The translations under genes were made by a program, and so were the position numbers. Shown here piece after piece: positions 21,080 to 54,900 of a stretch of 54,900 nt of DNA. The first letter of the stretch is position 1. Each line of letters starts with the position of its first letter. The DNA is from an uncultured Alphaproteobacteria bacterium (GTDB lineage Bacteria; Pseudomonadota; Alphaproteobacteria; Micavibrionales; Micavibrionaceae), in contig CAMLMM010000005.1 of NCBI GenBank assembly GCA_946481105.1, positions 1 through 54,900 on the forward strand, given 5' to 3'. The notes beneath the pieces were generated by a model, which was not told the origin of the DNA, made no database searches, and was given only the letters and a program-made list of their open reading frames with translations.

Positions 21080-21095
21080 CTTTTAAGCTCCTAAT

Positions 21096-21144
21096 ATGTC
21101 TGCATTCTGCTCATTCATGGCACCACCCCCTTGATCTGAATCAA
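21096..21144 (-). promoter_or_regulatory. FNR/DNR-type promoter of narG
   Basis: TTGAT-CTGA-ATCAA (21131-21144) lies in the gap between narK2 and narG. On the minus strand a CAGAAT (21109-21104) sits about 32 bases from the box centre, suiting a class II activated start near 21096 and a leader of about 17 bases. Confidence 0.7.
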
Positions 21145-21158
21145 GGGGATGTAATTTC

Positions 21159-22766
21159 TTACGGATTTTTATATTTTGCCCCTGGTCGCAGGTAGGCGCA
21201 CCAGTTCAAAACAAGGCAAAGGACATAAAATCCTGCGAAGCCATATAAAGCTTGTTCGGGAAATCCTTTTTCAATCTGCTCACCAAACACAATCGGTATA
21301 ATGAAGGCACCGTAAGCCGCCACCGCCGATGTCCAGCCGAGGACCGGACCGGCCTGCTGACGATCAAATACCACAGCAACCGTCCTGAATGTCGATCCAT
21401 TGCCAATGCCAGCAGCAAGAAACAAGGTCAGAATGGTCAGAAAGAACGGTGTGAAATAAATTTCCGGTGTCGCAGACGCGTAGGCAATCTGCATAAAGTG
21501 TGCAGCCCCCAATGCCCCCGCCACCATGACCACCGAGCATATTTGCGTAACCATCGCTCCACCCAGTTTATCTGCCAGCCAGCCGCCGATCGGGCGGATA
21601 ATGGCTCCGATAAATGGGCCAATCCATGCGTAAGTCAAGGCGCTTGGCGCATTCGGATTTGCCAGTGTATGCGTCAACACACCATCAGGACCCGTCACAT
21701 GCTGGAACCCGAAGATAACTTTGATAGACAAAGGCAACGCGGCCGAATAACCGATGAAAGACCCAAAAGTCATCGTATAGATAACTGTCATGATCCATGT
21801 ATGCGGATGGGAGAATATTTTATATTGCGCCCGCACCCGTTCGCTCAAGCCAGGCAGAACCGCCAAAATCCCAACTGTTGCCGCAATAACTATCGGCAAT
21901 ACAATCCACTTGCTGATGTTCAAGCCCGAACCGTTTGCGCTTTCAGGTAGGATAAGCCAAAGCCCTGCAATAGAAGTTATCAGCCCCACCAGAAGCATAA
22001 TGGATACTTTAACAAAGGAAGAAACGGGTCCTCCAATATGTGGGGATACATGCTCTGATCTGATATTGCTCAGCAGGAACCAGGAGAGAACTGTTAATGG
22101 AATAAGTATCGATGCCCAAATAAATCCCGAATTAAAAATCCATGTTTCTGCTCCGGCTGGAATTTTGCCGATTAACGTCCCGGAAGCGTTGGTCAATATC
22201 ATTGGCTCTCCACCGAACAACCCAAATGTCATGACAAACGGAATCAAAATCTGCGTGGCGGTCACACCGAAATTTCCTAAGCCTGCATTCAATCCCAAAG
22301 ACAATCCCTGCATTTTCTTGGGGAAGAAAAAACTGATATTTGACATCGATGAGGCAAAATTTCCTCCACCAAACCCGCACAGCAAAGCTAAAAGCTGGAA
22401 CACCCAAAGCGGTGTATTTATATCCTGAAGCGCAAACCCTGTCCCGACCGCTGGCGCGATCAGCAATGCCGTGGTGAAAAATAAAGTATTCCGTCCCCCT
22501 GCAATACGAATAAAGAAGGAAGATGGAATACGCAACGTGGCCCCCGCCAAACCCGCAATCGAATTCAAGGTAAACAAATCGCCTTTGCTGAAAGGAAAGC
22601 CAAGATTAAGCATCTGAACGGTGATGACGCTCCAATAAATCCAAACCGCAAATCCGCATAGCAGACAGGGGATGGACATCCATAAGGTTCGCCAGGCTAT
22701 ACTTTTGCCCGTCTCTTGCCAGAAAGTTTCGCTCTCAGGTTCCCATTTAAGAATATCTTTGGCCAT
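21159..22766 (-). CDS. narK2: Nitrate/nitrite transporter NarK2-like (MFS)
   Basis: A 535-residue major facilitator of the nitrate-nitrite porter family with about twelve transmembrane segments. Typical NNP motifs are seen: GLAGATLRIPSSFF in the region after helix 2, and two glycine-rich signature helices (CGFGGGNFASSMSNISFFFP, then AGLGNFGVT). It probably imports nitrate in exchange for nitrite, feeding NarG. It begins 10 bases after narK1 ends. It is longer than the usual ~470 residues, mainly in a loop and the middle helices. Confidence 0.92.
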   Translation of the reverse strand: MAKDILKWEPESETFWQETGKSIAWRTLWMSIPCLLCGFAVWIYWSVITVQMLNLGFPFSKGDLFTLNSIAGLAGATLRIPSSFFIRIAGGRNTLFFTTALLIAPAVGTGFALQDINTPLWVFQLLALLCGFGGGNFASSMSNISFFFPKKMQGLSLGLNAGLGNFGVTATQILIPFVMTFGLFGGEPMILTNASGTLIGKIPAGAETWIFNSGFIWASILIPLTVLSWFLLSNIRSEHVSPHIGGPVSSFVKVSIMLLVGLITSIAGLWLILPESANGSGLNISKWIVLPIVIAATVGILAVLPGLSERVRAQYKIFSHPHTWIMTVIYTMTFGSFIGYSAALPLSIKVIFGFQHVTGPDGVLTHTLANPNAPSALTYAWIGPFIGAIIRPIGGWLADKLGGAMVTQICSVVMVAGALGAAHFMQIAYASATPEIYFTPFFLTILTLFLAAGIGNGSTFRTVAVVFDRQQAGPVLGWTSAVAAYGAFIIPIVFGEQIEKGFPEQALYGFAGFYVLCLVLNWCAYLRPGAKYKNP

Positions 22767-22776
22767 AATTGTCTCC

Positions 22777-24069
22777 TTATTTCTGACTGTTCACAGGAAC
22801 TTCCCCGAGTTCCGGCAGGTATTTCGATTTTTCAAGATTGCGTTCCATAATGACGATCGTGATATGCATCCAGATCAGCGCGACAGCTACAAGAATGAAC
22901 ATCAGCATGAAGCAGCTGGTCCATATATTCAGGTAATCATTCATAATGCCGAAACATATAGGCAGAAAGAATCCGCCAAGCCCGCCGATCAGGCCGACAA
23001 TCCCGGCAACAGAACCGACATCATTGGGATAATAAACCGGAATGTGTTTGTAGATGGCCGCCTTGCCCAGCGACATAAAGAAGCCTAGGACAAATACAAT
23101 CACAGTAAAGGGAATGAAGCCCCAGCCAAAACTGAATTCAATATTTCCTTTGATGCCGTGAACGATATAATCGGTCTGCGGATAGGCTAAAAGGAAACAG
23201 CAGATGGAGCAGACAAAGAATGTCCAGTACATGACCGACCGTGCCCCATATTTGTCCGAAAGATAGCCACCAGCAGCACGGAACAGTGACCCGGCAACGG
23301 AGAAGGAAGCCGCCAGCATACCCGCCGTCCGGATATCCATACCGTACACACCCACATAATAGCGTGGCAGCCACAGGGCTAACGCCACAAATCCGCCAAA
23401 AACAAAGAAGTAATACAGGGAAAAGCGCCATACCTGCAGCTTCTTGAGCGGCTTCAATGATTCCCACATTGATTTAGGCGCAGTTTTGGCTGCCCGCTGA
23501 GCCTGGATTTGCGGCTCATCCTTGGTAAATATCCAGAACAGGGCGGCCATCACTACGAGTGCAACCGCCCAGACCTGGGCCACGGTGTGCCATCCATACG
23601 CAACCATGACAAACGGGGCAGCAAACTTGGTTACAGCCGCTCCGATATTCCCCATGCCATACACGCCCAGCGCCGTCCCCTGATGCGCCTTGTCATACCA
23701 TTTAGAAAGATAAGCTATCCCGACAACAAAACTTCCACCGGACAGACCAACCCCCAGTGCAGCGAGCAGCATCATCTCGTACGTATCAGCATAAGTCAGG
23801 CACCAAGTAAAAAGAGCCGACGACAACATAATTGTTATAAAGATAGGACGCCCGCCATATTGATCCGCCCATATCCCCAAAAAGAGCCTGATAAGTGACC
23901 CGGTCAAAATCGGCGTACCGATAAGGAGACTGAATTGCGTATCACTCAGCCCCAGATCCTGCTTAATCTGGACCCCAATAATGGCAAAAATCGTCCAGAC
24001 CGCAAAACAAACCGTAAAAGCCAGAGTGGTAAGGGAAAGTGCTGAATTCCGGTCCGTTTTTGTTATCAT
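22777..24069 (-). CDS. narK1: Nitrate transporter NarK1-like (MFS)
   Basis: A 430-residue member of the nitrate-nitrite porter family, the size of NarK1-type nitrate/proton symporters. NNP features include the signature GGSFVVGIAYLSKWYDKAHQ and, later, GLIGGLGGFFLP. The start at 24069 (MITKTDRNS) was chosen because the 42 extra residues of a longer frame do not resemble the family and run into the promoter. It is the first gene of the narK1-narK2-narGH(orf)JI-ppiC-nnrS cluster. A pair of NarK proteins allows start-up by nitrate/proton symport and then nitrate/nitrite exchange. Confidence 0.92.
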   Translation of the reverse strand: MITKTDRNSALSLTTLAFTVCFAVWTIFAIIGVQIKQDLGLSDTQFSLLIGTPILTGSLIRLFLGIWADQYGGRPIFITIMLSSALFTWCLTYADTYEMMLLAALGVGLSGGSFVVGIAYLSKWYDKAHQGTALGVYGMGNIGAAVTKFAAPFVMVAYGWHTVAQVWAVALVVMAALFWIFTKDEPQIQAQRAAKTAPKSMWESLKPLKKLQVWRFSLYYFFVFGGFVALALWLPRYYVGVYGMDIRTAGMLAASFSVAGSLFRAAGGYLSDKYGARSVMYWTFFVCSICCFLLAYPQTDYIVHGIKGNIEFSFGWGFIPFTVIVFVLGFFMSLGKAAIYKHIPVYYPNDVGSVAGIVGLIGGLGGFFLPICFGIMNDYLNIWTSCFMLMFILVAVALIWMHITIVIMERNLEKSKYLPELGEVPVNSQK

Positions 24070-24134
24070 GGGATAGATTCTGTCAATATGCTGTTCTAAA
24101 TCACAGGTGGAAAATTCTTTATTTTTCCCCCTCT

Positions 24135-24183
24135 CTTCTCTAATATCCCATGTGAGCAGGAAGTGTGACTTGATCTGAATCAA
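24135..24183 (-). promoter_or_regulatory. FNR/DNR-type promoter between narK1 and the second Crp/Fnr gene
   Basis: TTGAT-CTGA-ATCAA (24170-24183) is identical over its full length to the narG box. Toward narK1 a GATATT -10-like hexamer (24147-24142) has class II geometry with a start near 24135. Toward the regulator gene at 24222 the box centre is 45 bases from the ATG and the -10 is less clear. The rest of 24070-24221 holds nothing else recognised. Confidence 0.65.
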
Positions 24184-24221
24184 GCACAGGAACAAAGGCT
24201 TAAAACTAGGCGCGGAAACTC

Positions 24222-28958: not shown

Positions 28959-30989
28959 ATGCCCACCCTCGCCCGTCCGCTCGCCTCCGTTCCTGCTAAT
29001 TCGTCCTCGCCACATCAGGGGCATCTCACTGATCCGGCAATAGATAAAATTGTGACCCTGTTCGGTGGCACACAGGTGGATTGTTCAGAAGCCGTGAGCG
29101 AATATATTTCCGGCTCCGATTGGCGCATTAATGCCAACGCCAATACAGGTTACTCCAATGCCGGTATGATCAACAACGTCGCAGGCAAGGTCATCGCCAA
29201 TTTCTGGTTGGACGAAATTTACAGTGCCGAAGAAGGTCAGGCGCATCGTCAAGGTGACATTCACATCCATGACCTGGATTGCCTGACAGGTTACTGCGCT
29301 GGCTGGTCATTACGCGCCCTTCTCAACAGTGGCTTTAATGGCGTTGGCGGCCGCGTCTCCTCCCGCCCGCCCCGCCATTTTCGTGAAGCCCTCGGCCAGA
29401 TGAGTAATTTTCTGGGGATTCTGCAATCGGAATGGGCAGGAGCGCAAGCATTCTCCAGCTTTGATACCTATCTGGCTCCTTATGTTTTTTATGACGACCT
29501 GACTTTCAAGGAAGTCAAGAAAGCCATCAGGCAATTTGTTTATAACTTGAATGTGCCCGCACGCTGGGGGCAATCTCCGTTCACCAATATTACCCTGGAT
29601 ATTACGGTGCCGGAAGACTTGGAACATCAATTCCCGACTTATAACGATCTTCACCTGTTTAAAGGAATTGACAACAAAACCCTGCTTGCCAAAGCTCAAT
29701 CGCGGGATATGGGTATACGCAATCTGGGAGATATGACATTCCGACATTTCGCGCCGGAAATGGAGATGATAAATATCGCCTATTATGAAGTTATGACTGA
29801 GGGTGATTCAACCGGCCAGCCATTCACCTTCCCTATTCCGACTGTAAACATAACCGAAGATTTCAACTGGGACAGCAAAGTCGCCAACGCCATCTTTGAA
29901 AATACTGCCAAGGTTGGCTCTTCTTACTTCCAGAATTTTGTCGGAAGCCAGTTCCTTGTCGACCCTGTAACGAAGGAACGAAAACCTAATCCGGAAGCCT
30001 ATTCACCCGGTGCTGTTCGTTCCATGTGCTGTAGATTACAGCTGGACCTGCGCGAGCTACTGAAACGTGGCAATGGTTTATTCGGGTCTGCGGAAATGAC
30101 TGGCTCTATTGGCGTTGTCACACTGAATATGGCACGCCTTGGTTACCGGTTTAAAGGTAATGTGACCGGGCTTATGAACGAAATTGATCGTTTGATGGAT
30201 ATTTCAAAGTCCACACTGGAGAAAAAACGCGTATTCGCCCAAAAAATGTACGACCGTGGGCTCTACCCCTATACAGCAAGATATCTTCCGTTCTTCCGTA
30301 ACCATTTTTCGACTATCGGCGTGAACGGCATGAATGAAATGATCCGGAATTTTACCGGGGATGCCTATGATATTACGGACGAAAAAGGCATTCAGCTATG
30401 CCTTGATATACTGGATCATATGCGTCACCGCCTGATTAATTATCAGGAATCAACCGGCAATCTGTACAATCTTGAAGCAACCCCAGCTGAAGGGACAACC
30501 TACCGCTTCGCTAAAGAAGATAAGAAAAGATATGCAGATATTATTCAAGCCGGCTCGGGTGAGAATATATACTATACAAACTCGTCGCAGATTCCTGTTG
30601 ATCATACAGAAGACCCGTTTGAAGCACTTGAACTGCAAAACCGCCTGCAATGCAAATATACGGGGGGCACCGTTCTGCATCTTTACATGAACGAAAAACT
30701 TTCCAGCGCCGAATCCTGCAAGCGTTTTATTCATAAAGTGCTCAGCACGTACCAACTGCCCTACGTGACTGTAACGCCCGTGTTTTCGGTTTGCGATACT
30801 CACGGATATCTTAATGGCGAACAACCGGAATGCCCTCACTGTCAGGCCAAAACAAAAGTCTGGACACGGGTCATGGGTTATTTCCGTCCCATAGACAGCT
30901 TCAACAAAGGCAAGCAGGGTGAGCATCATCAGCGCAAGCACTTTGTCGAAGACTGGGTAGATACGGGCAATTTATTCAAGGGTGCCTAG
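28959..30989 (+). CDS. nrdD: Anaerobic ribonucleoside-triphosphate reductase NrdD (class III)
   Basis: A 676-residue glycyl-radical enzyme that makes deoxyribonucleotides without oxygen. The radical glycine is predicted at G640 in TRVMGYFRP, preceded by the C-terminal zinc site (CDTHGYLNGEQPECPHC). The N-terminal ~90-residue ATP-cone seen in E. coli NrdD appears absent, because catalytic-domain sequence (SDWRINANANTGYS) starts near residue 53; allosteric activity control may therefore differ, which fits an NrdR-like site upstream. AAAGGAAAC precedes the ATG. nrdG follows directly. Confidence 0.95.
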   Translation: MPTLARPLASVPANSSSPHQGHLTDPAIDKIVTLFGGTQVDCSEAVSEYISGSDWRINANANTGYSNAGMINNVAGKVIANFWLDEIYSAEEGQAHRQGDIHIHDLDCLTGYCAGWSLRALLNSGFNGVGGRVSSRPPRHFREALGQMSNFLGILQSEWAGAQAFSSFDTYLAPYVFYDDLTFKEVKKAIRQFVYNLNVPARWGQSPFTNITLDITVPEDLEHQFPTYNDLHLFKGIDNKTLLAKAQSRDMGIRNLGDMTFRHFAPEMEMINIAYYEVMTEGDSTGQPFTFPIPTVNITEDFNWDSKVANAIFENTAKVGSSYFQNFVGSQFLVDPVTKERKPNPEAYSPGAVRSMCCRLQLDLRELLKRGNGLFGSAEMTGSIGVVTLNMARLGYRFKGNVTGLMNEIDRLMDISKSTLEKKRVFAQKMYDRGLYPYTARYLPFFRNHFSTIGVNGMNEMIRNFTGDAYDITDEKGIQLCLDILDHMRHRLINYQESTGNLYNLEATPAEGTTYRFAKEDKKRYADIIQAGSGENIYYTNSSQIPVDHTEDPFEALELQNRLQCKYTGGTVLHLYMNEKLSSAESCKRFIHKVLSTYQLPYVTVTPVFSVCDTHGYLNGEQPECPHCQAKTKVWTRVMGYFRPIDSFNKGKQGEHHQRKHFVEDWVDTGNLFKGA

Positions 30990-30993
30990 AGCC

Positions 30994-31743
30994 ATGCAAT
31001 CTCCTGCAGCTCTAACACAAGCGACCGGGGAGTCTTCTGCCGTCAGGCAGAAGACTCTTCCCATTTACTCGGTCACGCCCTTTACCATGCTCGATTTTCC
31101 TGGCCGCACGGCATGCATTGTATGGTTTAGCGGCTGCAACATGCGCTGCCCTTATTGCCACAACCCACAAATTGTGAAGGGAAAAGGACGTGGGAACATT
31201 ACACAAGTAATGGACTTTCTTCGTAAGCGGCAAGGGCTATTGGATGGCGTTGTCTTATCCGGGGGCGAAGCTTCTGCGTACCCGGGGCTGCCTGCATTTA
31301 TCCGCGAAGTAAAATCTATGAATTATGCGGTTAAACTTGATACAAACGGCCTAAGATCCGATATCATTAAATCTTTTCTGGACGCCGGATTTCTGGACTA
31401 TATCGCCCTTGATTACAAAGCCCCTCCCGTAAAATTCAAACTGGTGACCGGGGTAGAGAAGTACGAGTTCTTTAATCAAACGCTTGATATATTGTGCAAC
31501 CAGAGCAAAGTCCCCTTTGAAATTCGTACAACAGTGCATACCGACCTGATGAATGAAGATGATGTTAATTCGATTATCCGGGATTTAGAATCACGTGGGT
31601 ATACAGGCACCCACGCAATCCAGAATTTCAGGCACAGCGATGATCGACCAACGCTCGGGTTTATGAAACCTCAAAGCCGTATCCTGGAGCGAGATAATAT
31701 TTACCACCCCTCAGCCTTCAGAATTGAATTCAGGAATTTCTAG
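30994..31743 (+). CDS. nrdG: Anaerobic ribonucleotide reductase activating protein NrdG (radical SAM)
   Basis: A 249-residue radical SAM activase that abstracts hydrogen from the NrdD glycine. The cluster motif is C48-x3-C52-x2-C55 (CNMRCPYC), and GGEAS (positions near 88) contacts SAM. It has about 25 extra N-terminal residues compared with short NrdG proteins. The ATG at 30994, just after the nrdD stop, is preferred over a GTG at 30982 that lacks a ribosome site. The stretch 31744-31881 after it shows nothing recognised. Confidence 0.93.
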   Translation: MQSPAALTQATGESSAVRQKTLPIYSVTPFTMLDFPGRTACIVWFSGCNMRCPYCHNPQIVKGKGRGNITQVMDFLRKRQGLLDGVVLSGGEASAYPGLPAFIREVKSMNYAVKLDTNGLRSDIIKSFLDAGFLDYIALDYKAPPVKFKLVTGVEKYEFFNQTLDILCNQSKVPFEIRTTVHTDLMNEDDVNSIIRDLESRGYTGTHAIQNFRHSDDRPTLGFMKPQSRILERDNIYHPSAFRIEFRNF

Positions 31744-41252: not shown

Positions 41253-43601
41253 ATGCAAAGAAAAACAACTCACCTTTTTATACTCTCTACAGTGTTTGTT
41301 GTCAGCTGTATCAGCTATATCATGCTGACTGTCCAGCAGGGTCGCAAGGAAGTTAACAATAAAATGGACTGGGTGGCCCATTCCCAGGCCGTTATGCTTT
41401 CAAGTGAACATTTTCTAACCACCCTGGAGAGCATGCTAAGTTCCCAGCGTGGTTATCTTATAACAGGGGACATTTTATTCCTTGATGAATATAAATCAAA
41501 AAAATTTCGGCTCCTGCAGGAATTATCCGACTTGGAACGATTGACCGATGACCGCCAAATTCAGCACTCACAAAATAAAAAATTGAGAAAGCTTAGTGAA
41601 GAATATATCCAATATCTGGAAGCGCGTATCATCAAATTTTCTGATTCTCCTATTGTGGGGAACAAAGAAGATAAACAGGAATTTTTACGTGGCAAAAGCA
41701 AGGTTGAATCACTGCGTGCCGAAATTCTGACCATTATCAGCAAATTTCTGGAAGATGAGAAGAACCTGCTCCATGCGAACATGGATGGACTCGAAAAAAA
41801 CCGCCAGCATTATCGACAAAATCTTGCCATGTCTTTGGTTGGCGCCTGCGTGCTTATTATCCTGTCCAACTGGGTTGTCTTCTCAATTCAGCGGCGGCAT
41901 CTAACCGAAGGCGAACGCTTTCAGGCATTAGAAGACAGATACACAGTCGCTGTAAAAGCTACCAACGACGGTGTATTCGACTGGAATATAGAGACAAAAA
42001 ATATCTTCCTTTCGTCTCAGATATTCCGCATGTGCGGCTATAACAAGCCAAATTACGATGGTCACATATGGGGCGTCCCGTTTTTTATGGGCGGAAAAAA
42101 TCCCCTCGACCTTATCCATCCCGACGATATTGGAAATTTTCATCAGCGGCTGGATGAATTTATCGATGGCCAAACTCTGGAATACCACAATGTTTTCAGG
42201 GTTAAACATTATGATGGACACTGGATATGGGTTAATGCGCGGGGCGGCGGCATTTATAACGAAACCGGCAAGGTAGTCCGGATGATCGGCTCACACACGG
42301 ATATCACCACATCCAAGCAATATGAACAGCGTTTACGTCGCGATAAAGAGGAAGCAGAGAATTCCAGCAAGTCAAAAATGGAATTTCTGGCACATATGAG
42401 TCACGAAATTCGCACACCTTTAACCGCGATCACCGGTGTGGCCGAAATTTTAAATCGGCATAAGGATAAACTTGACGAGCGTCAGCAGGTTCTTCTGAAA
42501 ACGTTAATTACCAGTTCTTCCACCCTGCGCGATCTGCTTAACGACGTGCTTGATTTTTCCAAAATCGACAGCGGTGAAATCGAACTTTCTTCCGATGGAA
42601 TTGTATTAGGGCAACTTTTTGATGAAATTGTAGCAATCATGTCTGTCCAGGCTGTGGAGAAAAATATCTCTCTCATATCCCAGCATAAGAATATTGAGCA
42701 CTTGATTTTTGAAGGCGACCATGTGCGGCTAAGACAAATCTTAATTAACCTGGTAGGAAATGCCATCAAGTTCACGGACAAAGGACACGTCACCATCCGG
42801 CCCCATATTATTATACAGGGCGACAAAGCGGGTCAGGCGCGCCTGAAGGTGGATGTTATCGATACAGGCATTGGCATAGATTCCGAAAACCTGGAAATTA
42901 TCTTTGATCGGTTCAAACAGGTTGATGATACAATCTCCAAGCGATACCGTGGTACAGGACTTGGGTTACCCATTTCACGGAAGCTGGCCGAAATAATGGG
43001 CGGCACTATTGTTGTCGCCAGTGAAATAGGCCGTGGCTCTATCTTTACCCTCGATATCCCTACCAGTATTCTGAATCTTCATGAAATCAATCCGGATAAG
43101 CTGGCGGCGCATGAACAGGCCACCCTGCCTCCCGCCGCCTTACCGCTACCCGAGACCCAGCCTGCCACTGCCCTGCAGGAAGCCAACGACAATACATCAA
43201 AGCGGATACTGATGGTTGAAGATTATGAAGGGAATATTGTAGTTATAGGTTTTGCGCTTGAGGATATGAATATTGCTTTCGATGTTGCGCGCAATGGCCT
43301 CGAAGCTTTGGAATTATTCATGAGAAATAGTTATGATGCGATTCTCATGGATCTGCAAATGCCCAAAATGGACGGCGTCACAGCCACAGCAAGAATCCGT
43401 GAGCTTGAAAGGGAACAGGGATTAGCACACACCCCCATCATTGGAATGACGGCCCACGCAACCTATCAGGATATTGACCGCTGCCGTCAGGCGGGCATGG
43501 ATGACCATTTGACAAAACCGATTCACCAGAAAGATTTACGTGCAGTCGTCAGGGCACATACTGGCGACGAGGGTAATCGCCGCCAGCATATTAATGCCTA
43601 A
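41253..43601 (+). CDS. Hybrid sensor histidine kinase (CHASE3-PAS-HisKA-HATPase-REC)
   Basis: A 782-residue membrane sensor. One helix at 8-27, a CHASE3-like extracytoplasmic domain about 36-185 (LLTTLES/SSQRGYLITGD pattern), a second helix about 192-211, and a PAS domain 225-355 (DGVFDWNIETKN, then the PAC end VVRMIGSHTDIT). Next come HisKA with H384 (FLAHMSHEIRTPL), an ATPase domain (NAIKF, DTGIGI 537-542, GTGLGL 567-572) and a C-terminal receiver with acceptor D700 (LMDLQMPKMDG). Its stop overlaps the sigma gene stop (convergent). It may feed the general stress response or the nearby OmpR-type regulator; partner unknown. Confidence 0.93.
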   Translation: MQRKTTHLFILSTVFVVSCISYIMLTVQQGRKEVNNKMDWVAHSQAVMLSSEHFLTTLESMLSSQRGYLITGDILFLDEYKSKKFRLLQELSDLERLTDDRQIQHSQNKKLRKLSEEYIQYLEARIIKFSDSPIVGNKEDKQEFLRGKSKVESLRAEILTIISKFLEDEKNLLHANMDGLEKNRQHYRQNLAMSLVGACVLIILSNWVVFSIQRRHLTEGERFQALEDRYTVAVKATNDGVFDWNIETKNIFLSSQIFRMCGYNKPNYDGHIWGVPFFMGGKNPLDLIHPDDIGNFHQRLDEFIDGQTLEYHNVFRVKHYDGHWIWVNARGGGIYNETGKVVRMIGSHTDITTSKQYEQRLRRDKEEAENSSKSKMEFLAHMSHEIRTPLTAITGVAEILNRHKDKLDERQQVLLKTLITSSSTLRDLLNDVLDFSKIDSGEIELSSDGIVLGQLFDEIVAIMSVQAVEKNISLISQHKNIEHLIFEGDHVRLRQILINLVGNAIKFTDKGHVTIRPHIIIQGDKAGQARLKVDVIDTGIGIDSENLEIIFDRFKQVDDTISKRYRGTGLGLPISRKLAEIMGGTIVVASEIGRGSIFTLDIPTSILNLHEINPDKLAAHEQATLPPAALPLPETQPATALQEANDNTSKRILMVEDYEGNIVVIGFALEDMNIAFDVARNGLEALELFMRNSYDAILMDLQMPKMDGVTATARIRELEREQGLAHTPIIGMTAHATYQDIDRCRQAGMDDHLTKPIHQKDLRAVVRAHTGDEGNRRQHINA

Positions 43602-44134
43602 TTGACCAGTATAGAGCTTACTGTCATGCTTGCTTGATCAAGTGGCAATTTGCGATTGCTGCCACCCATTTCCTGAATCAGCGCATCCCGTGCCCGTGAC
43701 AAACGGGAACGAACGGTGCCTACAGGGATATCCAGTCGGTCACTCACTTCTTCATAGCTCATTTCATACGCGCATATAAGAATAAGTATCTCACGATGCG
43801 GCGCGCTCAATTTCATCAAGGCATTCTGGACTTCGTGAACCATAATCATATCTTCTTGGGTCGGTGCCGACTCAATATTCATTAAAAGCGGTTCAGGATC
43901 ATACATGCTTTCAAATTTAGACTGGCGCTTATACCCCGTCGCAAATATGTTAAACATGATTTTTGATAACCAGCTAAAAGCCTTTGTCCCATCATGAAAT
44001 TTCTCACGGTTTCGCAGCGCTTTTTCAATAGTAGATTGCACGAGGTCTTCGGCGTCTGCTGGATTGCGGCATAGTTTGACCGCAAAACGGTTAAGCCCTT
44101 CAAGTTCACAGAACAATTCGGAATCTGTAAGCAT
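43598..44134 (-). CDS. ECF RNA polymerase sigma factor (EcfG-like)
   Basis: A 178-residue ECF sigma factor with region 2 (RFAVKLCRNPADAEDLVQST, then FSWLSKIMFNIF) and region 4 (SYEEVSDRLDIPVGTVRSRL, RARDAL). The start at 44134 has AAGGAG eight bases upstream, better than an in-frame ATG at 44161. Region 2 sequence and the presence of seven GGAAC-N16/17-NGTT elements in 37-46 kb suggest an ECF15/EcfG general-stress sigma. The usual partners NepR and PhyR are not visible in this window. Confidence 0.85.
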   Translation of the reverse strand: MLTDSELFCELEGLNRFAVKLCRNPADAEDLVQSTIEKALRNREKFHDGTKAFSWLSKIMFNIFATGYKRQSKFESMYDPEPLLMNIESAPTQEDMIMVHEVQNALMKLSAPHREILILICAYEMSYEEVSDRLDIPVGTVRSRLSRARDALIQEMGGSNRKLPLDQASMTVSSILVN

Positions 44135-44280
44135 CTCTTTTCTCCTTAGCTCGTTGGACAATTAAAGGTAGACCTTATTTGTAAGCGGCTAATGTCACGA
44201 ATGTTTCAGGAACGAAAAAAATTGTATCAATCTTGTAACATTATCTTTATAATGACCTTATCCCTTAAATTATTACGGCA

Positions 44281-45021
44281 ATGAAAATGGAAAAAGCGAC
44301 TATCCTCAGCGTCGATGACGATGAAAACCTCCAGCTCGTAACCAAAGAATATCTGGAAGGCGATGGGTACAAGGTTCTGCGCGCCCATAACATGAAAGAA
44401 GTTGATATCTGGCTTAACCAGGTCAGCAGCTTTGATCTGGTTCTGCTTGATCTTGTTTTAAAGGATGCAGAAGGGCTTGAATTGATTTCACGAATCCGGG
44501 AAATCACGAAAGCTCCCATCATCATAGTCAGCGGAAAAACAGATACGACCGAGAAAATAGTCTGCCTGGAAATGGGCGCGGACGACTACATTACCAAACC
44601 TTTTGAAATGCGCGAACTGGCGGCACGGATAAAGGTGGTTATGCGCCGAACACTGGCCCCGCCCCCTTCCGCCAGCAATGACAGTAATGTCAGCCCTGTC
44701 GATGAAAAAATATACTTTGGGGACTGGCATCTGGACCGTGGCCAATATCAGCTTTATAATAAAGACGGAAGCTCCGCCGACCTTACAACCGGTGAGTTCA
44801 AACTTCTGGAAGCCCTTGTGCTTTCATCCCGGAAGGCCGTCAGCCGGGAGCGCCTGTTTGAAATTACACGTGAAGGTACCAATTTCGATTCATACGACCG
44901 GGCTATTGATATACAAATTGCCCGCATTCGCCGAAAACTGGGCGATAACCCCAAAAGCCCTGAACTTATTAAGACCATACGCGGCGTGGGTTATATGTTC
45001 TGTGGCAACGTCACTAAATAG
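44281..45021 (+). CDS. OmpR/PhoB-family response regulator
   Basis: A 246-residue two-component regulator: receiver domain (1-120) with acidic pocket DDD (12-14), phospho-acceptor D57 and K106 in DDYITKPF, then a winged-helix DNA-binding domain (about 140-242: LTTGEFKLLEALVL, RAIDIQIARIRRKLGD, IKTIRGVGYMF). It is divergent from the sigma factor gene across a 146-base AT-rich gap that contains TATAAT at 44248-44253. No ribosome site is obvious; a second ATG lies two codons in. A cognate histidine kinase is likely the hybrid kinase or one outside the window. Confidence 0.92.
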   Translation: MKMEKATILSVDDDENLQLVTKEYLEGDGYKVLRAHNMKEVDIWLNQVSSFDLVLLDLVLKDAEGLELISRIREITKAPIIIVSGKTDTTEKIVCLEMGADDYITKPFEMRELAARIKVVMRRTLAPPPSASNDSNVSPVDEKIYFGDWHLDRGQYQLYNKDGSSADLTTGEFKLLEALVLSSRKAVSRERLFEITREGTNFDSYDRAIDIQIARIRRKLGDNPKSPELIKTIRGVGYMFCGNVTK

Positions 45022-48086: not shown

Positions 48087-48116
48087 AAAAAACCCGTCCT
48101 TTGCGACGGGTTTTTT
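48087..48116. terminator. Bidirectional rho-independent terminator
   Basis: AAAAAACCCGTC (48087-48098) pairs with GACGGGTTTTTT (48105-48116). It ends the DUF892 gene and, on the other strand, overlaps the stop codon of the adhesin-like gene. Confidence 0.9.
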
Positions 48117-51100
48117 ACACATTGGATAGCAAAGCTTTACGCAAATTCGCCTGACGCTGCTCATGATAGGTCATGACATCAACAAATTGCCGCTGTAATG
48201 GGTTATATATTTCTTTTTCAACAGGGGTCGTATGATTATCTTTAAGGGCATCATTGCTATCCTCAACGCTGTTAAGAAACTCAAGTGCCTGACGAATATT
48301 GGTATAATGCTCCTCATGCGTCAAGGCGTAGTCGGATACGTTATCCGCATGTCCTGCCCCCCCTGCCCTACCAAAAAGATACGATGTACCATCATCCAGT
48401 TTTTTATCCAGCAGACTGGCAATTTTGCGCAGTTGAAATGTTGTGTTTTCCCGCAGAATTTGCAGGAAACTGCCCAAGCCATAAAAAGCTGCTTCCTGGC
48501 CTTCCGCGCCTCCACGCAATGTTTCGCGCAATACGCTTTCACGGCGTTCGTTCCCGGCAACACTTGGTTGTTCTGGATGGGAAATAACCGGTCCGCTTCC
48601 TGTGGCAGGTGGCGCCACGAAACTGTCTGCCAGATTTATAATATTGATGGTAAATGCCTCATCATAAATTTCACCGTGACCATCATCGCTGCGTATGATC
48701 AAATGTATAAACTGCGTGGCCTCATAATCAATATTACCGGCAACCTGAAGCTGACCGCCTACGATCATGAATTTGCTTCCGGGATTGCTGACCAGTGAAT
48801 AAATATGCGTATCTGCTACGTCCTCATCTACAGAGGACAAAGAACCTACAATTGTGCCAAACGGATCATTTTCAGTGACCTGATTATTGGTTAAGGCAAT
48901 ATCGGTTGGCGTATCATTGGCGTCCAGAATATTAATAGTCACCGTTACTGTACTAAACAACCCGGCTATGTCCTGTACACGGATATCTAATGTATAAGAA
49001 GTAACCATTTCATAATTGGCGGCAGCTACATTGGTTAATATAATAGCGCCAGTCCCTGCATTAATCGCAAATGCCCCAGCTCCTGTTCCCCCGGTAATTG
49101 AATAAGCCAGCACATCACCTGTATCCGGGTCCAGGGCCGTTACAGCCCCTGCCAAAGCACCCAGCGCGCTGTTTTCAACTAGGGAATACGGGCCTGTCAT
49201 GCTATAGACAGGGATTTCGTTGACAGGCGTTACATTTATATTAAATGTTGCTGCCGGAACAGACAAAGCGCCATCTGTAACCGCAAAGGTAAACGCATCA
49301 GATGTTGTTTCTGAATCGTCATGAGTATACTGAATGTACCCATTATCAATATCACCTTGCGTGAAGCTGTCGCCCAACCCCAAAGCCAACCCGGTATTAG
49401 TATTAACCAAAGTGCCATTATTAACTTCGTTAGTAATGGTATATATCAACGCCGAATCCGGTGGCGCATCGATGTCCGATGACGACAACATCGTATTGGT
49501 AATAACAGTAGAGGCTCCCTCATTCAACGTAACACCGGTGTTGGTGTTCAGGACAGGTGCCTCATTCACATCAGCGATATTGATCGTGACGGTCACCGTA
49601 CTAAAAAGCCCACCGGTATCCTGAACACGCAAGTCAAGCGTATACGATGTCGCCAACTCATAATTGGCGGCAGCGGCGTTAGTCAGGTTGATCTGCCCTG
49701 TGGTCGAATTTATAGCGAAAGATCCGGCCCCAGTACCCCCGGTAATACTAAAACTCAATGTATCGCCTGCATCAGGATCACCTGCATGTGCGAAGCCAAC
49801 CGATGCCCCAGTCGAAGAGTTTTCAGCAAGCGTATAAGGCCCGTTGGAAAAATTGGCCAGGATTGGCGCCCCCGTCCATTCGATAATATAAGGCCGATTG
49901 ATCATTATGTTGATGTCATTCCACAGCCCGCTGGTCAGAATTTCCATCCCGTCTTCACCACCGGAATCATTCGGTTCGCTGCCATTCCAGTTGGTATAAA
50001 AACCATTTTGTGCCGATCCGGCAGCGTTACCCAGCCAGAACATCTGGCCTGCCTCTGGCCCGCCATGCCAGAGCCACTGCCCCTCGGCCGCAGCATCACG
50101 CCCGCCCAGCCATGTGCTGGTTGTGATCATACCTGTCAACGTGGCATTCTCGGAAGCCGACGTGCTTGTCGCCAGATATCCGGTAAAGCCATATAAAAGG
50201 CTGGCAGTAGCATTCGATGTTGCTGTAGAAAGGATTGTAGCCGTGCTTATATAGCGATAAAAATTTCCGCTGGTAGCGTTGTACACCAGGTTAAGAGTAG
50301 GGTTGGCAAAAAATACCTGCTGTTCCGGCGTAAATGTCGGGGCTTCATTGGCGTTGGTAATATTAATCGTGACATTGCGCGTTGAGGATAGGGGTGTAAA
50401 ACCGTTATCCGTTCCCTGAATGGTCAGGGTATAAACATTCTGGCGTTCATAATTCAATAAAGCCGTGCTGCTGAGCGTAATGGCGCCGCTTGAAGAATTA
50501 ATGGAGAATAAATTATCGGTATTCCCCCCTGTGATGGAATAGGTAACGGTATTCCCCTCAGCATCTGACGATGTCATGGTTCCCAAAGCCGTCCCGGCTG
50601 TTGCCGCTTCGCTGACCGATAAAGGGCCAAGCGCATTCAGGACGGGCGCGGTGTTTTCGGGGACATCCAGAACATTAATGGTGATGGTTTCTGTATCTGA
50701 TAAACTTGGCGTTCCGTTATCCGTTACCTGCACAGTTAACGTATAGCTTGGGGTCACTTCGTAATTCAATGCAGCCGCATTACTGACTGTAATGGCACCG
50801 GTAGACGAATTGATACTGAATACTCCGGCACCAGTCCCGCCTATAATGCTATAGGTAAGAACACTCCCCAGGTCGGGGTCCGTAGCTATGGCCGATCCTA
50901 TCCCGGTTCCATTTGCCGCCGATTCCGAAACATTCAGGGGCCCCGGGATGCCACCTTCGGATACTTCATACACTCTTACATTATCAACACCCCACGCTTC
51001 ATCAGTTACCCCCTGGTTGAGTGTTGAACTGAATCCCAGCTTAATGGTCGATGCTGTGCTTAGAATTCGAAGCTCGTAATGATACGTTTGATCAACCCAT

Positions 51101-52617
51101 CCTCCAAAAACGAAGTTCACATTGCTGGTCGTTGTTTCCTGAACAAGCCAGGATACAGCCCCGCTGCTGCCATCGGCAGGTGAATTGAGAGTGCTTTGTG
51201 ATAAGGATATGTTATAAGCAACCAGGTTATCGATATAAATGTAGAAATTCTCGCCATCCCAGCTGTCGATTTCATACATATCAAAGGAAATGGTCACATA
51301 ATCCTGCATGCCGGACAGGTTATAGGTTTTTGACGTTAGCTGCGCGCCAGCCTCTTGCGAATGCCGTCCCAGAAAATTTGTCAGGATGGATCCGCCATTG
51401 GTGGTCGTGTTATCGCTCCACCCTGTTGCCCCTGATTCAAAATTCTCGGAAGACACTAAAGTCCAGCCACCAAAAACGGGGGCTTCATTCACGGGTGTAA
51501 TTGTGTAATTAAAAGCAGCCGAGGCTGTCGTCGCCAGACCGTCACTGACCGTGACTTCAAAGTAATCGAATGTCGTTTCCGACCCGTCATGGGTATAGGT
51601 AATGTAACCGTTATTGATATCCGCCTGCGTGAATGTGCCATTCAATCCGATGGTCAACCCGGTATTTGTATTCGTCAATGTTCCGCGGTCTACCGCATTC
51701 GTCACTGTATATAATAACGTTGAATCAGTATTATCGGCATCCGTAGCCGCCAGCATCGCGCTGATTATTACCTGCGCGGACCCTTCTGCCACTGTGCCGC
51801 CTGTGTTCGCTGAAATAGTCGGGGCTGTGTTGGTAATGCTTAAGCCCCATTTATTGGCCAGATAATTTTCAACGTCATGTCGTTCATCGGATGTCAACGC
51901 GCGGTTATAAATCACAAGTTCGGCGATATCGCCCTGCAGAAAATCGCCGCTGGTTGAATCATCGCCAACATAAACTCCGGTCGTAGTAATGCGCGCCCCG
52001 GTCGTGGCGGTAATGACGTTCGTACCGTTTATATTGACGCTGCCGCTGGTCCCCGCCTGAACGATATCCGCCAGGGTATACGCGCTGGCCGTATAATTAA
52101 CCGTTGAATTATAAAATGACCCGTTCAAATAATAATTATATTTATTTGGCCCGGATCCGTCATTCAAATATAATCCGTTACGGCTGCCCGGTCCTTCAAT
52201 TTCAAAAACATTGGCGCGCCCGCTGGTTGTCGTGCGCTGATACACGACAAAAGCTGAGTAGTTGCTCCCGGCGATTGTCGCCGCCACATTGGATAATCTG
52301 TCATCCACGCCATCAAACTTCAGGACATTTTTGCCATTTAATGTATCAACCCCGTATTGTGGCATGGCCGACCCGGCACTCGTGACATTGTAATTGCTGC
52401 TGCTTTTATCGACCCAGGTGCCCACTGTTCCAGCAAAACCATTATTGGCCCCACCCGTTCCTGTAGCGGCACTGTCCCCATCAGCATCAAGAATGGTGGT
52501 GTTATCTGCTGCGTCGAGCCAGAGCACGTTACCTGTCAAAGCAGGTAACGAAGCATCCAGCATAAGACGTTTCTCCAGCGTCAGGAGCCGCAGTTTTTTA
52601 TAATTAATCCCGCTCAT
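48115..52617 (-). CDS. Large secreted adhesin-like protein with LEPR-XLL-like N-terminus, cadherin-type repeats and a C-type-lectin-like domain
   Basis: A 1500-residue modular protein. The N-terminus has no Sec signal but LRLLTLEKRLMLDASL (9-24), a form of the LEPR-XLL motif that begins many giant surface proteins. Then: LamG/concanavalin-like domain 25-260; a CSPG/cadherin-like repeat 262-380; a jelly-roll-like domain 380-553 (NFESGATGWSDN); two cadherin-type repeats 556-758; a C-type-lectin-like domain about 760-920 (WLGGRDAAAEGQWLWHGG, later NWNGSEPNDSGGEDG); three or four further cadherin/CSPG-type repeats 920-1326; and a charged, helical non-repeat tail 1330-1500. RTX nonapeptides are not seen. 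It lies downstream of the metalloprotease-HlyD gene, probably its processing/export partner. Start at 52617 has no ribosome site but TATAAT lies 9 bases upstream. Confidence 0.88.
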   Translation of the reverse strand: MSGINYKKLRLLTLEKRLMLDASLPALTGNVLWLDAADNTTILDADGDSAATGTGGANNGFAGTVGTWVDKSSSNYNVTSAGSAMPQYGVDTLNGKNVLKFDGVDDRLSNVAATIAGSNYSAFVVYQRTTTSGRANVFEIEGPGSRNGLYLNDGSGPNKYNYYLNGSFYNSTVNYTASAYTLADIVQAGTSGSVNINGTNVITATTGARITTTGVYVGDDSTSGDFLQGDIAELVIYNRALTSDERHDVENYLANKWGLSITNTAPTISANTGGTVAEGSAQVIISAMLAATDADNTDSTLLYTVTNAVDRGTLTNTNTGLTIGLNGTFTQADINNGYITYTHDGSETTFDYFEVTVSDGLATTASAAFNYTITPVNEAPVFGGWTLVSSENFESGATGWSDNTTTNGGSILTNFLGRHSQEAGAQLTSKTYNLSGMQDYVTISFDMYEIDSWDGENFYIYIDNLVAYNISLSQSTLNSPADGSSGAVSWLVQETTTSNVNFVFGGWVDQTYHYELRILSTASTIKLGFSSTLNQGVTDEAWGVDNVRVYEVSEGGIPGPLNVSESAANGTGIGSAIATDPDLGSVLTYSIIGGTGAGVFSINSSTGAITVSNAAALNYEVTPSYTLTVQVTDNGTPSLSDTETITINVLDVPENTAPVLNALGPLSVSEAATAGTALGTMTSSDAEGNTVTYSITGGNTDNLFSINSSSGAITLSSTALLNYERQNVYTLTIQGTDNGFTPLSSTRNVTINITNANEAPTFTPEQQVFFANPTLNLVYNATSGNFYRYISTATILSTATSNATASLLYGFTGYLATSTSASENATLTGMITTSTWLGGRDAAAEGQWLWHGGPEAGQMFWLGNAAGSAQNGFYTNWNGSEPNDSGGEDGMEILTSGLWNDINIMINRPYIIEWTGAPILANFSNGPYTLAENSSTGASVGFAHAGDPDAGDTLSFSITGGTGAGSFAINSTTGQINLTNAAAANYELATSYTLDLRVQDTGGLFSTVTVTINIADVNEAPVLNTNTGVTLNEGASTVITNTMLSSSDIDAPPDSALIYTITNEVNNGTLVNTNTGLALGLGDSFTQGDIDNGYIQYTHDDSETTSDAFTFAVTDGALSVPAATFNINVTPVNEIPVYSMTGPYSLVENSALGALAGAVTALDPDTGDVLAYSITGGTGAGAFAINAGTGAIILTNVAAANYEMVTSYTLDIRVQDIAGLFSTVTVTINILDANDTPTDIALTNNQVTENDPFGTIVGSLSSVDEDVADTHIYSLVSNPGSKFMIVGGQLQVAGNIDYEATQFIHLIIRSDDGHGEIYDEAFTINIINLADSFVAPPATGSGPVISHPEQPSVAGNERRESVLRETLRGGAEGQEAAFYGLGSFLQILRENTTFQLRKIASLLDKKLDDGTSYLFGRAGGAGHADNVSDYALTHEEHYTNIRQALEFLNSVEDSNDALKDNHTTPVEKEIYNPLQRQFVDVMTYHEQRQANLRKALLSNV

Positions 52618-52666
52618 GTGTTATAATTATAAAACAAAATAATTAATCTTTTTTAGTAATTTTGAT

Positions 52667-54787
52667 TTAATTCAGCCCTAATTCCCGGAAGAATAGCCCC
52701 GCCGCATCGCGGAAAAATTCATAAAGCGGGCTTGTATAGCTGCCTGTAATACGGATGGTGCCGGAAAGTACCGTATTATCAAGACTTTCTGTTTTATTTT
52801 CCGGCAGAAGCGAAATACGGGTAATTGCCTGTATGGGCTTGAGCGCATGCCCCTGAGCTGGATCAATCTCACTCTTTATCGGCCCGCCAAAAGGGGAACC
52901 AAGCTGGGCCCAGGGTAATATCTCTATATTTGCCGGATCAATTGTCTCTACTTTAAGGGGAATGGATGTCAGGGGGGCGGCATGCGGAATGAATTTAGCT
53001 GAATTCCCTACAACAATGCGCTCAATGTCTTCATCAAGCCCATATGCCGTCACCCGACTCGCCTGGGTATTAACAATACGCGCCAGCAAATCTCCTTCCC
53101 GTACCATATCACCTGCATGAAGATTCAGCATCATATCCCGTACCATTCCCGCGAACGGCGCCTGAACTATCAGTTCATCCCGTTTTCTTCCCAGTTCTGT
53201 CAATTTTTCACGGGCTGCATGTATCTGATCCTGAATACTTGCCGAATCCTGCCCTTGCGCCCCGGCCAAAATCTGCTGCAACTGCGACTCTAATTTTTTT
53301 AATTTCTGCCCTGCTAATTTATAGTCTTGTTCCAGCTTCGGCGATTGTAATACTAGTATAACATCTCCGGCCTGTACCTTGTCCCCCTCTTTAACAAGAA
53401 TTTCCACGATCTCAGATGGGGTTGATGGATATACGGACTGATATTCCGCAGCATGCAGAATTCCTGGAATTGCGACAGTCCGGTTTAACGGCAAAATAAA
53501 GCAGAGACTGATAGCCGCCACTGCCAAAATTACCCGCCGCCCGCGTGGGCGTTGCCAGATATCCTGGCGTCGGCTCCACCAGATACAGATTTCAGAAAGA
53601 ACGGGCAATGCGATAAAATAGGCTATCTCTATCAGGAACAGAATAAGGCCTAAGGGCTTAAAGAATACATGGTAGACCAGCAGGGCAATCCCGGTGAACA
53701 GGAAAAACCGGTAAATCAGCAGCAGATAGCCAAAGATAACCAGAAAATTCTGTGTGCGGACATTCAGAAATTCAGACGCATCATCGGGCAGTGAAAAGAG
53801 TACTCGGCGTATATGCCATCGGGCAAAATTACAGGCGCGTGCCTGCAGGTTTTCCAGTCCGGTCATGTCGGACAGCATATAATAGCCATCAAATCGCATC
53901 AGGGGATTAAGATTCACGAGGAGCGAAGAAACCAGTGCGACGCAAACAACCATAAAAGACAATGTCTGTAATGTACTTCCCGGTGTGGCTATGTTCCACA
54001 GCATCAGGAAAACCGCTGCCAGGCAGAGTTCCGCCCGTATACCTGCCATCCCGATAGCCAGACGGTCATGCCGCGAAGACAACGACCAGGCACCGGTAGT
54101 TTCAGTATACAAAACCGGATACATCACAATAAACGCAATACCCATATGCGGCACAGGAATTTTATACTTTGTCGCCGTATAGGCATGCCCCAGCTCATGG
54201 ACTATCTTTACAAATCCCAATATCAACAATATCTGGATTACGCCCTCAAACGTGGCCAGCCCTGTAAAAGTGTGAAAAAATTCATCTGCGCGCGGTAACA
54301 TCAGAATAACACCAAGCGCCAGTAGGCCCATCATGCACGTAAAGAATTTTTGCCCCAGCACCCACGCTACATGGGGGTATGTTTTGTCGAGAAAAGCCTG
54401 GGAGCGAAATAAAGGAACAGTGAAAAATAAGTAACTATGAACAACTTTCTTCAGGAAGCCGGAACCACACTGCTCCGGCACGATACGCTGATCTTTTAGA
54501 ACGACCAGACCGTTCCTTTGCAGAAAGCTGACCAGCTCGGCAATATCGTCCATATCGATTTTCAAAAGCGTTTCAGATTCGACTTTTTGCTTTAACTCAT
54601 ACGCGGTAGAACAGAATACAAACCGCGCCAGGCATTCAAATTCAGCCCAGTTGAGACGATAATAAGTATTAGCGATCGGGTCATGCAATGTCCGCGTTGG
54701 CTCTCCTGTCCCCGTGGCTGCATCTCCCTGATATAATTTGAGATAGGGATGCAATACCGGAAGACGGAAGTCTGACTGCGCCGCCAT
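52667..54787 (-). CDS. M50 membrane metalloprotease fused to a HlyD-like adaptor, with PqqD-like N-terminus
   Basis: A 706-residue fusion. Residues about 15-105 resemble a PqqD-type winged helix (NTYYRLNWAEFECLARF, then LVSFLQRNGLVVL), the fold that in RiPP systems binds leader peptides. Residues 110-435 hold many transmembrane helices with the M50 zinc site HELGH (197-201) and the second motif NPLMRFDGYY (294-303). Residues 440-706 are a periplasmic lipoyl/HlyD domain with a coiled coil (QDYKLAGQKLKKLESQLQQI and following). This plan matches the peptide zinc metalloprotease/HlyD group found with large LEPR-XLL proteins. Proposed job: recognise, cleave and export the adhesin; inferred. Confidence 0.85.
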   Translation of the reverse strand: MAAQSDFRLPVLHPYLKLYQGDAATGTGEPTRTLHDPIANTYYRLNWAEFECLARFVFCSTAYELKQKVESETLLKIDMDDIAELVSFLQRNGLVVLKDQRIVPEQCGSGFLKKVVHSYLFFTVPLFRSQAFLDKTYPHVAWVLGQKFFTCMMGLLALGVILMLPRADEFFHTFTGLATFEGVIQILLILGFVKIVHELGHAYTATKYKIPVPHMGIAFIVMYPVLYTETTGAWSLSSRHDRLAIGMAGIRAELCLAAVFLMLWNIATPGSTLQTLSFMVVCVALVSSLLVNLNPLMRFDGYYMLSDMTGLENLQARACNFARWHIRRVLFSLPDDASEFLNVRTQNFLVIFGYLLLIYRFFLFTGIALLVYHVFFKPLGLILFLIEIAYFIALPVLSEICIWWSRRQDIWQRPRGRRVILAVAAISLCFILPLNRTVAIPGILHAAEYQSVYPSTPSEIVEILVKEGDKVQAGDVILVLQSPKLEQDYKLAGQKLKKLESQLQQILAGAQGQDSASIQDQIHAAREKLTELGRKRDELIVQAPFAGMVRDMMLNLHAGDMVREGDLLARIVNTQASRVTAYGLDEDIERIVVGNSAKFIPHAAPLTSIPLKVETIDPANIEILPWAQLGSPFGGPIKSEIDPAQGHALKPIQAITRISLLPENKTESLDNTVLSGTIRITGSYTSPLYEFFRDAAGLFFRELGLN

Positions 54788-54788
54788 G

Positions 54789-54900
54789 CTACAAACCTGT
54801 CAACTGGCGTATAGCCAATACCGGACGGCGTAAAAATGCATAAGACAAAAATGTCCAGTTGCCATCAAAGCTGAGCTCAATGTAATCGCCTGCGTAGAGA
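54789..54900 (-). CDS. C-terminal end of an upstream gene, probably a HlyD-family adaptor (partial)
   Basis: On the minus strand a frame open to the window end reads AGDYIELSFDGNWTFLSYAF, ending IRQLTGL and a TAG 1 base before the metalloprotease ATG. About 36 codons are visible. The segment looks like the last beta strands of a HlyD-type periplasmic adaptor, fitting an export operon, but it is too short for a firm call. Confidence 0.5.
   Translation of the reverse strand, partial: LYAGDYIELSFDGNWTFLSYAFLRRPVLAIRQLTGL

Follow-up and report, generated by a model that had tools for sequence, protein, structure and literature searches.

A candidate dedicated secretion operon for a LEPR-type giant adhesin in an uncultured Micavibrionaceae bacterium

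Genes at the locus

We analyzed 54,900 nucleotides from an uncultured Alphaproteobacteria bacterium of the family Micavibrionaceae (GenBank assembly GCA_946481105.1, contig CAMLMM010000005.1, positions 1 to 54,900), hereafter the window, one end of which encodes a giant adhesin with a LEPR-type N-terminal motif next to a single polypeptide that joins an RRE/PqqD-fold domain, an M50 metalloprotease and a HlyD-type adaptor, together forming the end of a candidate secretion operon. All features lie on the minus strand and are given here in the order of transcription:

54789..54900, minus strand: last 36 amino acids of a neighboring HlyD-type adaptor (a GAF/HlyD member in relatives), its gene cut at the window end
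52667..54787, minus strand: RRE(PqqD)-M50-HlyD fusion, 706 amino acids (open reading frame list, Pfam, alignment)
54497..54766, minus strand: RRE/PqqD-fold domain, fusion residues 8-97 (fold)
54185..54199, minus strand: M50 zinc site HELGH, fusion residues 197-201 (alignment)
53888..53908, minus strand: second M50 motif NPLMRFD, N294 to D300 of the fusion (alignment)
52721..53491, minus strand: HlyD/MacA-like periplasmic adaptor part, fusion residues 433-689
48115..52617, minus strand: giant surface protein or adhesin, 1500 amino acids (open reading frame list and Pfam)
52549..52578, minus strand: LEPR-type N-terminal motif LEKRLMLDAS, adhesin residues 14-23, a proposed leader or recognition site (pattern and profile)

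The adhesin contains a Laminin_G_3 domain at residues 120-245, five Cadherin stretches and further cadherin-like matches by Pfam, and its composition is acidic (155 D+E vs 49 K+R) with no cysteine. The initial annotation had described it as lacking both a Sec signal and RTX repeats, in agreement with a hydropathy scan of the first 70 residues, where nothing as hydrophobic as a Sec signal was found (the highest Kyte-Doolittle mean over 11 residues is 1.28), and with a search of the protein for GG.G.D repeats, which found none. The start had also been called LEPR-XLL-like. The LEKRLMLDAS site is the sole match of our motif pattern in all six frames of the whole window. The first 50 residues score 14.5 bits (E 0.021) against the NCBIfam LEPR-XLL model NF012209, under its curated cut-off of 17 bits, and we therefore keep the term LEPR-XLL-like without assigning the protein to that family. 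Across 33 aligned segments the L, E, R and D of the motif are invariant, the segments having been chosen by a pattern that already demanded E and R.

Pfam recognizes M50 (PF02163) at residues 186-264 of the fusion and HlyD/biotinyl-lipoyl at 434-618, confirming that both parts, with HELGH in the first, occur in one polypeptide as initially read. H197, E198 and H201 as well as N294, P295, R298, F299, D300 and G301 are invariant in our alignment of fusions (A1); among fusion open reading frames (ORFs) of at least 640 amino acids, HExxH is kept in 104 of 104 and RxDG in 97, and the HExxH and NP..RFDG motifs fall within predicted membrane helices, as in M50 site-2 proteases. The PqqD-like part was not detected by Pfam, by NCBIfam or by a profile search of the PDB with alignment A2. 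We predicted structures for the whole fusion and for its N-terminal domain and compared them by fold, and the N-terminal domain adopts the three-strand winged-helix fold of RRE/PqqD domains; because this match settled what the sequence searches had left blank, we accept the PqqD-like identity proposed earlier. Matches to the full-length fusion are dominated by MacA/AcrA-type adaptors, and the M50 part has one weak sequence match among solved structures (3b4r, E 0.004). The stop codon of the upstream adaptor gene sits one base from the fusion start, and 12 of 23 residues at the C-terminal end of its product are identical to the homolog in locus L008, a likeness to the conserved second adaptor of relatives that bears out its earlier reading as an adaptor.

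A conserved gene block in relatives

A contig scan with alignment A1 yielded at least 581 confirmed stretches, the best 80 of which were surveyed for gene order. According to their record titles, these 80 loci span Alpha-, Beta- and Gammaproteobacteria, Nitrospirota and one metagenome-assembled genome of Thermodesulfobacteriota. The fusion is called as a single ORF in 79 of them and is preceded on the same strand by a HlyD-type adaptor of about 460 amino acids at position -1 (71/80 loci), a small HlyD-type adaptor of about 280 amino acids at position -2 (56/80) and a TolC-like protein at position -3 (52/80). Pfam assigns HlyD and OEP domains to these genes in the few members scanned, and a GAF domain (E <= 0.01) to the larger adaptor in 4 of 20 relatives, the window's own protein being known from 36 amino acids. 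Across the 80 loci, ABC transporters are not a recurring part of the block, of which the window itself shows only the end; an LSGGQ/E signature is present in nine scattered ORFs of loci L001-L104, among which that of L077 adjoins the fusion and that of L014 is a giant ORF. When ORFs called from 90 amino acids upward were clustered, with most small clusters unannotated, 6 of the 80 loci was the most that any cluster reached other than those of the four block genes, the giant ORFs (13 loci sharing one) and a further cluster of 7 loci.

The block also occurs on plasmids, with 68 plasmid records matching the fusion and no match in phage records. All five plasmids that we inspected (two from Azospirillum and one each from Magnetospirillum, Kosakonia and E. 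coli) encode a TolC and two more adaptors, and in E. coli, where 24 of 5426 complete genomes carry the fusion gene, 21 of its 25 places are on plasmids. E. coli plasmid NZ_CP081687.1 (L081/L086) holds the block together with a 4459-amino-acid Ig-like protein bearing LESRQLFDGAA.

LEPR giant proteins adjoin the block

In 48 of the 80 loci a LEPR giant ORF lies beside the block, 47 of them detected by a motif profile (A3, at least 14 bits) and one, L079, by pattern. Where both are in one stretch (35 loci), the LEPR frame is at most 4.2 kb from the block, and within 0.71 kb in 30 of the 35. When 14 loci with a broken neighboring ORF, or with one that lacked its start, were extended upstream, the motif appeared in 13, and L080 still ran off. 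The remaining 31 loci (among them L080, and L063, where no fusion ORF was called) end at most 0.7 kb from the block on one side or both, or inside the neighboring ORF, leaving L009, with no LEPR giant in the 6.0 and 10.0 kb free beside its block, as the one real negative among the loci that can be judged. Among four extra fusion copies in the same genomes, L101, L102 and L104 each adjoin a motif-bearing giant, and L103 is cut; G035 has LEPR giants beside two fusion copies, L093 and L104. On the plasmids, LEPR giants accompany the block in Kosakonia (L082), Azospirillum (L084) and E. coli (L086), L083 is cut, and the fusion's neighbor on the Magnetospirillum plasmid (L085) is a 493-amino-acid protein without the motif. 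As a control, no LEPR motif was found around 22 LssB-type ABC genes (of 23 above the cut-off in 31 system-bearing genomes, that of G028 being omitted), a comparison that is imperfect because at least 5 of the 22 have a giant ORF running off the 5′ end or a short stretch.

The N-termini of these proteins are seldom hydrophobic. An 11-residue hydropathy mean of 2.0 or more is reached by 8% of the LEPR N-termini (n = 61), compared with 90% of the TolC-like (n = 73) and 87% of the small-adaptor proteins (n = 63) of the loci. The motif starts at positions 4-116 in the 61 ORFs, which is no evidence in itself because these ORFs were chosen by a motif within the first 130 residues. We also looked for a C-terminal signal common to all substrates and found no support for one: F[STAVQ].[QE][LVF] stands at the C-terminus of 4 of 45 substrates vs 21 of 961 controls (p 0.02), and the ends are similar within clades, reading FVDVMTYHEQ..LR.AL in the window's kin and FS.QL in a few others. 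Some blocks adjoin more than one substrate-type gene; tandem LEPR proteins of 967 and 964 amino acids lie by one block at L007:258-6052, and L011, L030 and L053 also hold two.

Co-occurrence across genomes

The initial annotation had suggested a survey of genomes for LEPR proteins and fusions. The model NF012209 (E <= 1e-3) detects LEPR in only 8 of the 31 system-bearing genomes and is thus insufficient alone; we therefore made profile A3 to cover the other motif class. Among 142 genomes of Alphaproteobacteria (the class of G006), 7 have the fusion and 6 a LEPR protein by A3 (E <= 1e-3, two weaker matches at E 0.007 and 0.04 being dropped), with both in 6, the fusion only in 1 and LEPR only in 0 (Fisher p 7e-10). 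Among 229 genomes of Gammaproteobacteria (the class of G019), 30 have the fusion and 25 LEPR by A3 or NF012209 (E <= 0.01), with both in 21, the fusion only in 9 and LEPR only in 4 (Fisher p 6e-19). Leaving out the seed genomes G006 and G019, in which both genes were known beforehand, gives p values of 1.4e-8 and 3.6e-18; all of these p values ignore kinship among genomes.

Some of the discordant genomes have broken or truncated loci. In the one alphaproteobacterial case, G147, the fusion is cut by a contig end. Among the LEPR-only genomes, G302 shows the beginning of a fusion, next to adaptors, where a contig ends, the match in G299 lies in a 99-amino-acid frame, G392 is a true exception, and the fourth is G255. 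We checked the flanks of four of the nine gammaproteobacterial fusion-only genomes: G217 and G372 have a truncated repeat-rich ORF next to the fusion, the adjoining large ORF of G187 begins Sec-like, and in G373 neither an adhesin nor an adaptor adjoins the fusion. The two genes thus co-occur as well as being physically linked and, taken with the want of a recurring ABC transporter in the block, this means that two of the three results named at the outset as speaking against a dedicated pairing (no co-occurrence, and a complete type I ABC transporter adjoining the adhesin) are absent.

Two branches and their motif classes

The fusions fall into two branches that differ in their motif and in an accompanying gene. 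Motifs of the window's branch carry D at position 8 (42 of 42 cases), and those of the second branch end in LSAD, YSAD, LAAD or LAGD (6 of 6). A SecA-like protein of 646-726 amino acids directly follows the fusion in 13 of 17 second-branch loci (a count that omits L147, which is cut, and L142, which has no recognized adaptor), and the three that were scanned each contain SecA_DEAD and SecA_PP_bind. Of the four loci where no such gene adjoins, two belong to genomes, G260 and G029, that hold one elsewhere. G011, G014 and G029 carry both branches; both adhesin starts were read in the first two, and there each branch is paired with its own motif class. Near the fusions of the window's branch there is no SecA-like gene in the 80 loci save one 907-amino-acid SecA by L042; relatives G003, G005 and G006 have a single SecA match each (913-936 amino acids), and G004 has none at E <= 1e-20.

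Large sensor-type proteins whose N-termini look alike by eye also lie near LEPR and fusion genes (L138:3021-6146, L150:15030-16535, L162:13894-16779, L163:1890-4823 and L166:5880-8819), the one in L138 being PAS-GGDEF-EAL by Pfam. Their recurrence suggests control of adhesin display by cyclic di-GMP.

A proposed export mechanism and its alternatives

The linkage and gene order, the RRE fold, the conservation of the M50 residues, the missing Sec signal and the lack of a recurring ABC ATPase are shown here, and LEPR proteins very probably have a dedicated exporter. The pairing of adhesin and fusion put forward in the initial annotation is upheld by linkage and co-occurrence, whereas we infer its further steps, in which the leader would be captured, cut by the M50 site and pulled by the HlyD part. 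In general, RREs bind leaders through strand addition, and M50 proteases cut inside or beside the membrane. In relatives, the operon would comprise a TolC-type protein, a small adaptor, a larger adaptor (with a GAF-like cytoplasmic part in some), the fusion and the LEPR adhesin. The LEPR segment would serve as a leader that probably binds the cytosolic RRE of the fusion, which would then pass the adhesin N-terminus into its own membrane domain. There, in a step we judge about evenly balanced, the M50 site may cleave the adhesin, at or after the LEPR motif, and cleavage would release or license it to cross the envelope in a single step through a channel made of the three adaptor types and TolC. 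As a whole, the explanation that the window ends in the downstream end of such a dedicated operon for its LEPR adhesin is one that we favor with some reserve.

The weakest part of the proposed exporter is its energy source. From its operon position, the SecA-like ATPase may be the motor of the sister branch, which makes SecA our first guess, and housekeeping SecA is the simplest guess for the window's branch. Since 27 of the 31 system-bearing genomes hold a type I ABC transporter above a curated cut-off, an ABC ATPase acting in trans is possible.

The alternative that survives best, though we find it unlikely, is export that begins at the C-terminus and leaves the N-terminus retained, as for LapA-type adhesins, where the RRE would hold the LEPR segment and an M50 cut would free the adhesin on demand. 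Here too the RRE and M50 parts would act on the N-terminus, and this alternative is consistent with C-terminal ends that are alike within clades, but the substrates have no C-terminal motif common to all, whereas the N-terminal motif is widely shared.

Less probable still is type I secretion in which TolC and the adaptors borrow an ABC ATPase in trans and the fusion only processes the N-terminus. LssB-type ABC transporters are above the cut-off in 17 of the 31 genomes, and PrtD- or HlyB-type ones in 10 of the remaining 14. We hold this less likely because 4 of the 31 (G010, G016, G018 and G027) are above none of the three cut-offs, G027 having a full-length HlyB-family match below its own (377 bits), because no LEPR protein was found at the 22 LssB loci inspected, some of them incomplete, and because the LssB operons of G006 and G007, read gene by gene, pair the ABC transporter with an adaptor of its own and with what is presumably a TolC-type gene.

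The two other alternatives seem to us very improbable. That the fusion processes an unseen small peptide akin to ribosomally synthesized and post-translationally modified peptides (RiPPs), with the adhesin a passenger of the locus, would suit an RRE plus M50 closest to daptide and YydH/LiaK proteases, but few other ORF clusters recur (ORFs of at least 90 amino acids), whereas LEPR giants are repeatedly present. Ordinary Sec export through an odd signal peptide would fit the SecA-like ATPase of the sister branch, but not LEPR N-termini that have no hydrophobic core and conserve E, R and D inside the motif.

Relation to known systems

The initial annotation knew of no described mechanism for this pairing. 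Its core had in fact been described, without a substrate: the relevant sections of Kamneva, Poudel and Ward (2015; PMC4452313) report M50, GAF-HlyD and HlyD proteins encoded next to a secondary SecA_DEAD protein, with no ABC transporter and sometimes an OEP, and propose SecA_DEAD as the ATPase and the M50 protein as the pore, calling the broader role completely unknown. The window's branch shares with that module, as those sections present it, the M50-HlyD protein, the adaptor partners and the lack of an ABC transporter, and differs in having no SecA-like gene by the fusion and, mostly, a TolC-like gene in the block. The words LEPR and PqqD are absent from the main text of that paper, and LEPR substrates and an RRE from its abstract and sections 16-18. 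To that description the present analysis adds candidate substrates, the RRE domain, a branch that has TolC but no SecA, and the finding that motif class follows branch. A literature search, with preprints and most subscription journals outside its scope, found no paper making these links and nothing for PqqD, M50 and HlyD combined; PqqD and HlyD do occur together in PMC8939145. In the papers found, LEPR-XLL is mentioned in passing, and one of them reports a Vibrio giant protein with an N-terminal LEPR-XLL and C-terminal RTX, so that some LEPR proteins may be exported by a classical type I system.

The fusion has an M50 core in common with the proteases of daptide and YydH/LiaK RiPP systems. 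The daptide intramembrane metalloprotease model, NF041824, is the closest NCBIfam model to the fusions of both branches and in L135 extends over the N-terminal part too (residues 20-401). Unlike those proteases, the fusion carries an adaptor in the same chain and has giant proteins as its partners, and it scores far under both cut-offs (109 bits against 300 for NF041824, 36 against 225 for NF058609, YydH/LiaK). Its N-terminus likewise has the fold of RRE/PqqD leader-binding domains (lasso B1, PqqD, CteB), but here the RRE is fused to a membrane protease-adaptor, and the ligand presumed for it is not a RiPP precursor but a giant protein's N-terminus. With the type I systems for adhesins (LapBCE, SiiCDF; covered in part by PMC8277102) the system shares a TolC channel, HlyD adaptors and a giant, acidic, Sec-less substrate, the TolC-type factor being seen in relatives; unlike in those systems, no ABC transporter is encoded alongside, the substrate has no RTX and the shared motif is N-terminal.

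There is a fair chance that the mechanism belongs to a new class. More specifically, and tentatively, since we rate it slightly below an even prospect, it may be a distinct class of one-step Gram-negative secretion, in which a leader system of the RiPP type, made up of an RRE and an intramembrane protease, was co-opted to recognize the N-termini of giant adhesins, the leader being cut before passage through an ABC-less adaptor-TolC conduit with a SecA-like or housekeeping SecA motor. Our proposal suggests substrates (LEPR proteins) and a recognition domain (the RRE) for a module whose role its describers called completely unknown, and it suggests how LEPR proteins may be exported. In many bacteria, attachment and biofilms are shaped by giant adhesins, and the block is also borne on plasmids, including those of E. 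coli; if the proposal is true, the fusion of an export adaptor with a protease that reads leaders would represent an unusual secretion logic.

Other genes in the window

Outside the operon, we noted by eye several groups of genes in the window. Positions 41253-45021, which lie downstream of the adhesin gene at a distance of a few kb, hold a hybrid sensor kinase (plus strand), a sigma factor-like ORF (minus strand) and a response regulator (plus strand). Positions 28959-31743 encode an anaerobic (class III) ribonucleotide reductase and its radical-SAM activase, adjoining U32 peptidase-like genes, and the translations of 15726-24195 include nitrate reductase-type genes and two nitrate/nitrite transporter-like proteins.
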